From Clostridia bacterium (lineage in GTDB: Bacteria > Bacillota > Clostridia > Oscillospirales > SIG627): 64,000 nt of DNA. The translations under genes were made by a program, and so were the position numbers. Shown here piece by piece: positions 13,121-22,456 of this stretch. Numbering within the stretch: position 1 is the stretch's first letter; every line of letters begins with the position of its first letter. The stretch is from contig JAFUKG010000014.1 in assembly GCA_017467865.1 (NCBI GenBank), positions 1-64,000 on the forward strand, read 5' to 3'. The notes beneath the pieces were generated by a model, which saw nothing but the letters and a program-made list of their open reading frames with translations, was not told the origin of the DNA and ran no database searches.

Positions 13121-13153
13121 TTTTTTCTCTCCTGTTTCTATAAAGTAAGATGT

Positions 13154-13182
13154 ATTGTATCATATATTTTCAAAAAATACAA
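13154..13182 (-). promoter_or_regulatory. Predicted promoter of the MgtC-like gene
   Basis: On the minus strand, TTGTAT (13177-13182) and TACAAT (13154-13159) are 17 bases apart, about 35 bases before the start codon. Confidence 0.55.
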
Positions 13183-13287
13183 GTGTTAAATCTATGTAAA
13201 ATCCTCTTTTTAAAAAATATTTTTTATAAAGTCTTAGAAGTACTTATTTAAAGGGGTTTTCAGTTACTGACAAAATGTGAAAAACTC

Positions 13288-13316
13288 TTGAAAAAATCTA
13301 TCTTTTATGCTATAAT
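13288..13316 (+). promoter_or_regulatory. Predicted dnaA promoter
   Basis: TTGAAA (13288-13293), a 17-base spacer and TATAAT (13311-13316) lie about 50 bases before the dnaA start. The preceding stretch is very AT-rich, but I found no exact DnaA box in it. Confidence 0.75.
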
Positions 13317-13368
13317 TGTAAAAATGATTATATTTATATATGTAGAAAATTTTTGAAAGGAAAAAACT

Positions 13369-14754
13369 ATGGATTCCTTAAATGAAATATGGGCTTGCGT
13401 GCTTTCAAGGGTAGCTGAAAGCGGAAATTTTTCAGAGCCTACGTACAATTTATGGTTCAGAGATATAGAGCTTACAAGGCTTACAAATAATTTTGCAGTA
13501 GTAAACGTTAAAACTCAGCTCAGAAAAGATATTATTTCTTCAAGATACCTGTCTATTCTTGAAAAGCATCTTGAAGAGGTTATAGGCTTCAGAGTTGATA
13601 TAAATCTTGAGGTCATCGACGATAAGCCCCCTTACGATAAAGTTAATATTATAGAGCCTGCCTCATACGTTTCGGAAGAGGATAACAGTAAAAACGTAGA
13701 GGGCGAGGTTGGCGAGGGCGGAGAAATACACATGAAGTATAATCCCCAATATACCTTTGATAACTTTATTGTTGGAAATACGAATAAGTTTGCTCACGCT
13801 GCCTGCCGTGCCATAGCGGCAGATAAAGACCATTTTTACAATCCTCTCTTTATTTACGGCGACTCAGGACTTGGAAAAACTCATCTTCTTTATGCAATTA
13901 CAAATGAGGTAATTAAAAACCGTAAGGACTCAAACGTGGTTTACGTAAGAGGTGAGGATTTTGCCAATGAGCTTATAAAATCTCTCACTAAAAAGCTTCC
14001 TATGCAGTATTTCAGAGACAGATTCAGAACTGCCGACGTGCTTCTTGTAGACGATATTCAATTTATTGCAGGCAAACCCTCAACGCAAGAGGAATTTTTC
14101 CATACCTTTAACGCACTTTACGAGGACAAAAAGCAGATAATTTTAGCGTCTGACCGTCCTCCGAAGGAAATGTCCACTCTCGAAGACAGACTTCGCACAC
14201 GCTTTGAGCAAGGACTTATAGTTGACGTTCAACCGCCGGATTACGAGCTTAGACTTGCAATTCTAAAAAATAAAGCTCAAAGCCTTGACCTTAATATTTC
14301 AGACAACGTTCTCATTTATCTTGCAGATAATATAAAGAGTAATATCCGTCAGCTTGAAGGTGCTATAAAGAGACTCCGCGCAACCTCTCTTCTCACAGGA
14401 AAAGAGCTTACCCTTGATACTGTCAAGGAAAGCTTGCAGGATCTGTTTTCAAACGCAGTACCCGTTGGAATTACTATCGACACTGTTTTTGAAAACGTTT
14501 CTAAAAAATACAGCGTTCCCGTTGAAGAAATAAAGGGCAGAAAGAGAACAAAAGAATTATCTAACGCAAGACATATTACTATTTACATACTGAGAACTAT
14601 CACAAATATGTCGCTGACAGATATAGGAAAATATTTTAATATGCATCACACCTCTGTTTTATCGGCGTGCTCAAGAATTACAGAGGATATAAAGATAGAC
14701 CCTGTTTTAGAGCATGACATAAGTACTCTCATCAGAGAGATAACAGGACAGTAA
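13369..14754 (+). CDS. dnaA: Chromosomal replication initiator DnaA
   Basis: AAA+ initiator that binds DnaA boxes and melts the origin. Domain I (residues 1-85) has the expected tryptophans, followed by an acidic linker (to about 120). The AAA+ domain has Walker A GDSGLGKTHLL, Walker B VLLVDDIQFIAGK and the RTRFEQGL arginine finger. Domain IV has the HTH ITNMSLTDIGKYFN followed by MHHTSVLSAC. In most DnaA proteins the last motif reads RDHTTV; here the Arg and Asp are replaced by Met and His and one Thr by Ser. These residues contact bases in the DnaA box, so box preference may differ. Length (461) is normal. A strong AAAGG site precedes the ATG. Confidence 0.98.
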   Translation: MDSLNEIWACVLSRVAESGNFSEPTYNLWFRDIELTRLTNNFAVVNVKTQLRKDIISSRYLSILEKHLEEVIGFRVDINLEVIDDKPPYDKVNIIEPASYVSEEDNSKNVEGEVGEGGEIHMKYNPQYTFDNFIVGNTNKFAHAACRAIAADKDHFYNPLFIYGDSGLGKTHLLYAITNEVIKNRKDSNVVYVRGEDFANELIKSLTKKLPMQYFRDRFRTADVLLVDDIQFIAGKPSTQEEFFHTFNALYEDKKQIILASDRPPKEMSTLEDRLRTRFEQGLIVDVQPPDYELRLAILKNKAQSLDLNISDNVLIYLADNIKSNIRQLEGAIKRLRATSLLTGKELTLDTVKESLQDLFSNAVPVGITIDTVFENVSKKYSVPVEEIKGRKRTKELSNARHITIYILRTITNMSLTDIGKYFNMHHTSVLSACSRITEDIKIDPVLEHDISTLIREITGQ

Positions 14755-14768
14755 ACTGTGACTTTTAA

Positions 14769-14920
14769 TGTGGGAAAGTCAGATTTTTTCCACATTAATT
14801 CACATTAAATTTCAGGCTGTCATTTTCTATAAAAAAACGTGTTTTTTTATTTCCACATTTTTTCAACATAAGAAAAACGGTATTTCAAAATAAAAAAGCA
14901 CATTTTCGGCGTTTTCCACA
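14769..14920. other. Candidate oriC segment 1: DnaA-box-like sites between dnaA and dnaN
   Basis: The 293-base gap holds two exact TTTTCCACA sites (14786-14794 and 14912-14920) and a one-mismatch ATTTCCACA (14849-14857). An inverted near match, TGTGGGAAA (14769-14777), forms a dyad with the first. T- and A-rich tracts lie between and after them. The dnaA-dnaN gap is a classic origin location in Firmicutes. The sites match the B. subtilis box TTATCCACA except at position 3. Confidence 0.65.
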
Positions 14921-15047
14921 GTTTGAACAGACTCTACTACTGTTACTGAATATATAATTATATTATATTGCTTGATTTCTTCCCCACAAAAAATAAAAAA
15001 AATAAAAAGTGAAAAAGTAAAATAATTCACAGCTTAAGGAGATAAAA

Positions 15048-17317: not shown

Positions 17318-19620
<2,303 letters not shown>

Positions 19621-19645
19621 TCTGTGAGTAATTTCGACAAAAAAC

Positions 19646-19885
19646 GTCAAAAGTAAGAGTTTTCCACAGTTTGTGGAAAACTCTGTGTAAAACTTTTGAC
19701 AGAAGCAAAGTTGATAGTTAAGTTTTGACAATTAAAAAATAGTCTTATATATCAAGGTTAATTTTAAAAAGCGTAAACTTTTTAAGAGCAAATTAAAATT
19801 TTGAAAATGTAATTTTCTAAAATTTTCCACAAAGATATTAAGGAAAAAACTTTTCCACAAAATGCTGTCAAAAGCTTGTGGAAAG
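19646..19885. other. Candidate oriC segment 2: dense DnaA-box cluster between gyrB and gyrA
   Basis: The 283-base gap carries four exact TTTTCCACA sites: 19660-19668, 19672-19680 (inverted), 19823-19831 and 19851-19859. A one-mismatch inverted site lies at 19877-19885. The first two are arms of a 13-bp perfect dyad (19656-19668 / 19672-19684) with a 3-base centre, itself nested in an outer 9-bp dyad (19646-19654 / 19692-19700). The 120 bases between the two groups are very AT-rich, like a DNA-unwinding element. The cluster is denser than the one beside dnaN. Confidence 0.65.
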
Positions 19886-19903
19886 AAAGAGGAAAAGAGA
19901 AAT

Positions 19904-22456
19904 ATGGAAATAAATGTTGAAGGACAGGCTATAAGAAACGTTGAAATAAACAAAGAGGTAAAGCAGTCCTATATTGAATATGCCATGTCGGTTATCGTTT
20001 CCCGTGCTCTTCCCGACGTAAGAGACGGAATGAAGCCCGTACACCGCAGAATACTTTACTCAATGTATGAGCAAAATCTGACTTACGATAAGCCTTTCCG
20101 TAAGTCTGCTACAACTGTCGGTTACGTGCTCGGTAACTACCACCCTCACGGAGACGCGGCGGTATATGATTCAATGGTTCGTCTTGCACAGCCCTTCTCT
20201 CTTCGTTATCCCCTTGTAGATGGACAGGGTAACTTCGGTAACGTAGACGGAGACGGCGCGGCGGCGTACCGTTACACCGAGGCAAGAATGTCGAAAATTG
20301 CCTCCGAAATGCTGACAGATATCGAAAAGAACGTTGTTGACTTTATGCCCAACTTCGATAACAAGCACGAGGAGCCCGTTGTTCTTCCTGCGGCATTCCC
20401 CAACCTTCTTGTAAACGGCTCAGTTGGTATCGCTGTCGGTATGGCGACCTATATTCCTACGCATAACCTTTCAGAGGTTATTGACGGAACGGTTTACGTT
20501 ATGGAAAACCCCGACTGTACTATCCCAGAAATTATGCAGTTCATAAAGGGTCCCGACTTCCCCACAAGGGCGATGATCTACGGAACCTCGGGTATTAAGC
20601 AGGCTTACCTTACTGGCAAGGGTCACGTAATGGTGAGAGCAAAGTACCACATTGAAGAAAAGGCAAGCCACAAGAGCATCGTTTATACCGAAATACCCTA
20701 TCAGGTAAATAAATCTAAGCTTGTTGAATCTATTGCCGACCTTGTAAAGGATAAGAGAATAGAGGGAATTTCCCATATTCAGGACGAGTCGGGCAGAAAC
20801 GGAATGAGAATAGTTGTTGAGCTAAAGCGTGACGCCAATGAAACGCTTATCGTAAATCAGCTTTACAAGTATACTCAGCTTCAGGATACTTGTGCTATGA
20901 ATATGTTAGCACTTGTAAACGGAGAGCCTAAGACTCTCAATCTTAAGGACATCCTTTCCCACTACATAAAGCACCGTGAAGAGGTGGTAGTGAGAAGAGT
21001 AAACTTCGACCTTGAAAAGGCAAGAGCAAAGGCACATATCTACGAGGGCTACAAGATTGCTATTGACAATATCGACGAAGTAATCAAGATTATCCGCGGA
21101 AGCAAGACAGTAGCAGATGCAAGAGAAAACCTGATGGCACGCTTTGACTTCTCTGACGCTCAGGCGCAGGCTATCGTTAAAATGCCTCTCGGAAACCTTG
21201 CTTCTCTTGAGATCAACACCATTCTTGAAGAGCTTGCCCGACTTCGCGCACTTATAGCCGACCTTGAAGACATTCTTGCCAACAAGTCGAGAATTTTCGA
21301 GATAATGAAGGAAGAAATGCTTGAAATAAAGCGTAAGTTCGGAGACGCAAGACGCACCGAAATCGTTGAGGCAGAGGAAGAAATAATCCTTGAAGACCTT
21401 ATAGAAAAGCATAAGTGCGTTATAACAATCACTCACGACGGATATATTAAGCGTCTTCCCGCCGACTCCTATACTGCGCAAAACAGAGGCGGTAAGGGAA
21501 TTAATGCCATGAAGACCAAGGAAGAGGACTCTGTCAAGAGCATGTTTATTTCCCATAGCCATAACTATCTCTTTATGTTCTCAAATCTTGGCAGACTCTA
21601 TATAAAGAAGTGCTACGAGATACCCGAGGCATCACGTCAGGCTAAGGGCTCCCATATGAACAACGTGCTTTCACTTCAGGAGGGCGAACAGATAACCGCC
21701 TTTATTTCGGTTGCAAAGATAAACACAGAAGAAAATCTTATAATGGTTACCGAAAAGGGTATAATCAAGCGTACCCCCTTAAAGCTTTTCCGCCATATAA
21801 GGAAGGGCGGAGTCAATGCAATAAAGCTTGCTGACGACGATAAGCTTCTCTTCGTTAAGAAGACAGAGGGCGACGAGGAAGTGCTCATCGCAACAAGCGA
21901 GGGTCTTGCAATTAAATTTGACGAAACAAGAGTCAGAGTAATGGGAAGAACGGCGCGTGGTGTAAGAGCGATAAAGCTTTCGGAGAATGTCCGCGTTGTA
22001 GGTATGATAACCGCAAAGCACAGTGAAGACGGCTATGAACATCTCCTTCTCACCGTTACCGAAAATGGTGTGGGTAAGTGCTCTGCCCTTGATTCCTTCC
22101 GTCTGTCGGGAAGAGGCGGTAAGGGCGTAAGATGCCAGAAGATAACTGAAAAGACAGGTGCTCTTGTGGGAATTACCGAAATTTCTTACGAAGACGATAT
22201 AATGCTTATTACAAACGAGGGTGTTCTCATCCGAGTTCCCGCAGCTCAGATTTCCACAACGGGAAGAGCTTCCACAGGTGTAATTATCATGAGAATGTCC
22301 GAGGGTGCTTCCATTGTCGGCTTACAGAGAGTACAAAACGAGATAGAAGAGACCGAAGAGGGAAATGAAGTTCTCGACGAAACCGAAGAGGTAGAGGACA
22401 TTCCCGAAGATGATATCCCTGACGAAGAGGATACTCCCGGCGAAAATGAAGAATAA
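19904..22456 (+). CDS. gyrA: DNA gyrase subunit A
   Basis: DNA-cleaving subunit. [33 protein letters not shown] starts the protein; the catalytic Tyr is in [10 protein letters not shown]. GyrA C-terminal propeller repeats are visible, including the GyrA-box QNRGGKGI near residue 525. A 40-residue acidic tail ends the protein. The ATG at 19904 is preferred over an in-frame ATG at 19862: the native motif starts there, GAGG precedes it, and the upstream version would translate a DnaA-box-like sequence. Length (850) is typical. Confidence 0.97.

Follow-up and report, generated by a model that had tools for sequence, protein, structure and literature searches.

Which of two intergenic regions close to dnaA serves as the replication origin in this Clostridia genome, and what might be the role of a group of DnaA boxes located between gyrB and gyrA? 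The initial annotation of the window, i.e., the whole stretch of 64,000 nucleotides analysed here, had suggested that the working origin may be in the gyrB-gyrA gap or, as an alternative, that the origin may be divided between this gap and the dnaA-dnaN gap. For comparison, the dnaA-gyrA region was taken from 40 relatives and the boxes were counted gap by gap.

A conserved DnaA-box cluster between gyrB and gyrA

The gyrB-gyrA gap comprises 283 bp (19621-19903) and shows, together with the flanking genes, the following features:

17584..19620, + strand: gyrB, from the ORF translation
19646..19700: nested dyad around the array, with the outer arms GTCAAAAGT ... ACTTTTGAC and an inner perfect 13-bp dyad
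19660..19692: three-box array in 12-bp steps, with TTTTCCACA (+) at 19660-19668, inverted TTTTCCACA (-) at 19672-19680 and degenerate TTTTACACA (-) at 19684-19692
19725..19753, + strand: candidate gyrA promoter TTGACA-17-TATATC, between the array and the gyrA-proximal boxes
19823..19831, + strand: DnaA box in the conserved block CTAAAATTTTCCACA (block 19815-19831)
19851..19859, + strand: DnaA box close to the gyrA start, at the same place in L088 and L089
19877..19885, - strand: one-mismatch DnaA box CTTTCCACA close to the gyrA start, also present in L088
19904..22456, + strand: gyrA, start ATG at 19904

The ORF listed for gyrA from 19862 starts within the box cluster and is probably over-long. 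Overall, the gap contains four exact TTTTCCACA boxes (19660+, 19672-, 19823+, 19851+) and two boxes with one mismatch (19684-, TTTTACACA; 19877-, CTTTCCACA), so that the four exact sites of the initial annotation were recovered, whereas its single near site turned out to be two. Two of the sites lie in a nested dyad, as had been proposed, since the inner dyad AGAGTTTTCCACA-gtt-TGTGGAAAACTCT is complementary at 13 of 13 positions around a 3-bp centre and is enclosed by GTCAAAAGT...ACTTTTGAC; likewise, the sequence flanked by the two box groups is indeed AT-rich (79% AT). The outer dyad (TTTTGACA) was set aside as a functional element because it is not conserved in relatives.

In 5000 dinucleotide shuffles of the gap the number of boxes averaged 0.011 with a maximum of 1, and four boxes were reached in none. 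Genome-wide, TTWTCCACA is barely enriched (75 sites versus 62 for the reversed control in the 1.59-Mb draft), hence the signal is the clustering and not the number of sites; within this draft, two direct TTTTCCACA boxes at a distance of 30 bp or less occur exclusively in the gyrB-gyrA gap. For a DnaA-box cluster outside the origin (DBC) we looked for significant clustering away from the dnaA flanks and for boxes kept in relatives, and both were found here. Members of the same genus have 3-6 exact boxes per gyrB-gyrA gap, the other genera of the family usually 1-4, and nearly every gap sampled from the other families of the order has none. Taken together, 12 gaps of the family shorter than 500 bp contain 35 exact boxes, compared with 0.17 expected. 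Within the genus, 35 of the 42 columns of the array (19658-19699) and 14 of the 17 columns of the block 19815-19831 are invariant, compared with 47 of the 224 remaining columns. Considering this conservation of box columns in the genus and of boxes across the family, selection on the boxes is clear, and the cluster is, judged by its sequence, real, conserved and of DnaA type at the family level. It is missing in L094 and L095, where a fruK-like gene separates gyrB from gyrA (its translation resembles 1-phosphofructokinase, from which the name was read), and is therefore dispensable in some members.

Two alternative explanations of the cluster were considered. Chance clustering in AT-rich DNA, to which the weak genome-wide enrichment of TTWTCCACA might point, has a negligible probability given the shuffles, and it is refuted by the conservation across genera. 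A further explanation is that the dyad is mainly an RNA element, either a 3' hairpin of the gyrB mRNA or a terminator, and that the match to the box is incidental. In agreement with this, the dyad of the array, read as RNA of the + strand, folds into a strong hairpin (z = -6.1), the dyads at gyrB and tsaD (see below) are located shortly after the stop codons, a terminator-like site was called on the minus strand, and some changes in the flanks are paired among relatives. However, on the gene strand (+) no T-run follows the hairpin, the arms correspond exactly to the DnaA box while flanks and loop vary, and conservation extends to the box at 19823, which is unpaired, and to the degenerate third box. 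Together with the dyads of a sister family, which are part of a dnaA-dnaN origin, this makes an RNA element very unlikely.

Between the two box groups we found the candidate promoter TTGACA-17-TATATC (p = 0.033 versus 300 shuffles). Comparable promoter-like sites between the boxes are present in the g6 members L101 and L105 and were not found in several other members. A standard promoter scan of the gap did not list the site of the window because it required T at the last -10 position.

The unwinding module is located between dnaA and dnaN

Opening of the origin in Firmicutes requires a DnaA box followed by DnaA-trios and AT-rich DNA, with the trio being 3'-GAT-5' on one strand and CTA on the other (PMC8287927; PMC6669920), and the trio sequence of C. 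difficile, CACCTACTACTATTACTACTATGA, is located in its dnaA-dnaN region (PMC7561715). As an unwinding module (incC / oriC2, basal unwinding system, BUS) we considered at least three DnaA-trios no farther than about 16 bp from a DnaA box. In the window, the dnaA-dnaN gap contains these elements:

13369..14754, + strand: dnaA, from its translation and tblastn matches in relatives
14769..14868: distal boxes, with TTTCCCACA at 14769 (-), TTTTCCACA at 14786 (+), ATTTCCACA at 14849 (+) and TTTTCAACA at 14860 (+)
14912..14920, + strand: DnaA box of the unwinding module (oriC), TTTTCCACA, with eight of nine columns invariant in the genus
14934..14948, + strand: DnaA-trios CTACTACTGTTACTG, equalled in 0 of 300 shuffles and conserved in most family members
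14949..14970: AT-rich tract AATATATAATTATATTATATTG, probable DNA unwinding element

The three parts thus occur here in the order known from the Firmicute module (box, then trios, then AT-rich DNA), with AATATATAATTATATTATATT following the trios CTACTACTGTTACTG. The trio run of the dnaA-dnaN gap was significant (p < 0.01) in the window and in nine other members, and the complete module is found again in the genus and in the majority of the other family members; genus g5 and some members of g6 have a weak or altered version. In the five g5 members with weak or altered trios (L093, L096, L097, L099, L100) the gyrB-gyrA boxes are present. The gyrB-gyrA gap differs from the Firmicute module in having no trios: across 15 members no run comparable to that of dnaA-dnaN was detected in this gap, and its score in the window was no better than that of shuffles (p = 0.42). 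Values of p < 0.05 were restricted to L101 and L105, where they stem from minus-strand runs such as CTTTTACTCTTTCTC that adjoin the gyrA ribosome-binding region and lack CTA repeats. Scanning upstream of dnaA also revealed nothing comparable to dnaA-dnaN. Melting energy did not separate the two gaps, both of which are about equally easy to melt.

The predicted DNA-opening signals are consequently found in the usual place beside dnaA and not between gyrB and gyrA. In agreement with the initial annotation, two exact boxes were counted in the dnaA-dnaN gap (14786+, 14912+), to which three one-mismatch boxes have to be added, and the gyrB-gyrA gap is the richer one in exact boxes (4 versus 2). This illustrates that exact DnaA-box counts alone would name the wrong origin, whereas the trios mark the unwinding site.

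GC skew in the genus and in relatives

The switch point of the GC skew had been suggested as a check on the origin position, and it proved too weak in this genus to decide. We computed the skew on 60-140 kb stretches of nine genomes. Minima of the raw cumulative GC skew were scattered in the genus and were close to dnaA only in strongly skewed relatives; in these (G007, G016, G011, G008) the minimum ranged from 5.1 kb left of the dnaN start to 0.3 kb inside dnaN and never coincided with gyrB-gyrA. Third-position skew, corrected for gene strand, revealed no effect of side in the genome to which the window belongs. It favoured dnaA-dnaN over gyrB-gyrA by 6.3 log units in G007, the sole relative whose skew is clearly informative, by 1.9 in G003 and 1.7 in G008, leaned to gyrB-gyrA by 1.0 in G016 and was flat in the remaining genomes. 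Since G007 and G016 have no gyrB-gyrA cluster, the skew bears on the position of the origin in the family and not on the cluster itself.

The same array at other positions

A second copy of the dyad, accompanied by further boxes, was found between tsaD and rex (C15:50053-50138), and the array with extra boxes is present at this place in all six genomes of the genus (L082 1550-1680; L145-L149); g6 also has boxes at this site. Of the eight regions with the highest affinity for DnaA in B. subtilis, one lies downstream of gcp (= tsaD) and ydiF (PMC4447404), and deletion of six DnaA-box clusters outside oriC leads to early initiation in this species (PMC5295017). The cluster of the genus thus resembles the gcp-ydiF cluster in its position 3' of tsaD (= gcp), and it is possibly a very old DnaA-box cluster. 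Among 295 genomes of the order, 17 contain the exact dyad. Four loci of the sister family f20 (L209, L210, L212, L213) have it directly after dnaA, with the 12-bp register kept and upstream of a trio module. The array can therefore be part of an origin, and it may represent a unit on which DnaA nucleates, both in origins and at other sites.

Role of the gyrB-gyrA cluster

With moderate confidence, we regard the gyrB-gyrA region as an oriC-proximal DnaA-box cluster that would not be the opening site and would act in DnaA titration and/or in the control of gyrA. According to this proposal, DnaA would open the DNA in the dnaA-dnaN gap by means of the box, the trios and the AT-rich tract, and at gyrB-gyrA would most likely assemble in a cooperative manner, on the three-box array as well as on the boxes near gyrA. 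Being duplicated no more than about 5 kb from oriC, the cluster would sequester DnaA soon after initiation. Moreover, DnaA bound there would probably lower or time the transcription of gyrA, because a promoter-like sequence lies between the two box groups. The boxes, their clustering and conservation, the trios in dnaA-dnaN and the matching tsaD-rex cluster are direct observations, from which we infer that DnaA binds and is titrated at this place and that gyrA may be affected. Against this reading count the modest promoter support, with the site absent in several relatives, the array inside the dnaA-dnaN origin of the sister family, and the lack of the cluster in L094 and L095.

In E. coli, datA is a DnaA-binding cluster outside oriC that limits re-initiation, requires IHF and promotes ATP hydrolysis by DnaA. 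The gyrB-gyrA region resembles datA and similar titration loci in being a (here predicted) DnaA-binding cluster outside oriC, and it resembles the DBCs of B. subtilis in being an intergenic DnaA-box cluster outside the dnaA flanks. Unlike the latter, it lies at a distance of about 5 kb from oriC and has a promoter-like site of gyrA between its box groups, and in a study of B. subtilis the gyrB-gyrA region did not belong to the top regions bound by DnaA (PMC4447404). Our literature search found no earlier report of a DnaA-box cluster between gyrB and gyrA in Clostridia; a paper repeatedly mentioning gyrB-gyrA concerns origins adjoining dnaA (PMC4403523).

The proposal that the gyrB-gyrA gap itself is the working origin, with its AT-rich stretch as the unwinding element, draws on the larger number of exact boxes and on an AT-rich stretch between the box groups that melts about as easily as the dnaA-dnaN gap. 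Nevertheless, the easily melted stretch may be merely a promoter, relatives show no comparable trios in this gap, the complete conserved module of box, trios and AT tract occurs only in dnaA-dnaN, and the strongly skewed G007 switches at dnaA-dnaN (the log-likelihood difference of 6.3 given above). Hence, this suggestion of the initial annotation is not sustained, and we consider it highly improbable. A bipartite origin, in which gyrB-gyrA would be a second, non-opening oriC module, is a more serious competitor, yet in our view still a rather unlikely one. Here, a DNA loop holding dnaN-recF-remB-gyrB would bring DnaA bound at gyrB-gyrA to the unwinding module in dnaA-dnaN, and gyrB-gyrA would replace the module located upstream of dnaA in other Firmicutes. 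The origins of B. subtilis, C. difficile and H. pylori likewise have two box clusters near dnaA, one of them with the unwinding element; there the clusters are separated by dnaA, whereas in the window they would be separated by dnaN-recF-remB-gyrB. A further difference is that almost no boxes are present upstream of dnaA: the 400 bp upstream of dnaA in the window contain no exact and two one-mismatch boxes and thus no second cluster, and across the family this place holds 0-1 exact boxes per 400 bp, compared with 2-7 in most Bacilli sampled. It is this missing cluster that makes a bipartite origin across 4.7 kb possible, since gyrB-gyrA could stand in for it. In addition, rpmH has moved away in the family without taking a box cluster along, the dnaA-dnaN origin of the sister family contains the same 12-bp array, opening in vitro in C. 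difficile needs both modules (PMC7561715), and the distal boxes of B. subtilis exert their effect on the unwinding module via a loop (PMC6669920).

Several observations argue against a divided origin. At 63 bp and 126 bp upstream of the box at 14912, the dnaA-dnaN gap already has distal boxes of its own, the former with one mismatch and the latter exact; these are enough for a loop of the B. subtilis type. The members with the fruK-like insertion have no gyrB-gyrA cluster and yet must replicate. Many other families of the order have boxes neither upstream of dnaA nor in gyrB-gyrA, therefore a second module is not obligatory there. Furthermore, the same array at tsaD-rex is located away from the dnaA cluster, which is no less compatible with a general DnaA-binding cluster than with a bipartite origin. 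An extended version, in which the origin's second half was relocated in this family of uncultured Clostridia to gyrB-gyrA from its place upstream of dnaA, so that the origin is split by four genes (about 4.7 kb) and the same DnaA assembly also sets gyrA transcription, is speculative and appears unlikely; if true, it would couple the supply of gyrase to initiation. The comparison of families shows that within a single bacterial order a predicted DnaA-binding module can arise at, or shift between, different places of the dnaA-gyrA region, being positioned inside dnaA-dnaN in one family and between gyrB and gyrA in another, and the possible regulatory link from the initiator to gyrase expression is now directly testable.

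Gene neighborhood of dnaA and DnaA specificity

In the window, where the sequence directly before dnaA (13121-13368) was inspected, an MgtC-like gene precedes dnaA, and rpmH no longer adjoins dnaA in the family. The neighborhoods of rpmH (L215-L233) were inspected as a possible home of the lost upstream module; they contain almost no boxes and no cluster, and this refuge was thereby ruled out.

The boxes in the dnaA-dnaN gap of G011 (L103), which together with G016 (L102) represents genus g7, read TTWTCCGCA, and 5 of the 12 such sites in 100 kb are located there, while TTWTCCACA is absent from this gap, suggesting a changed DnaA-box preference. The C-terminal recognition helix of the DnaA encoded in the window reads NMHHTSVLSA, compared with GRDHTTV-like sequences in most relatives, and despite this helix the genus of the window keeps TTTTCCACA boxes.
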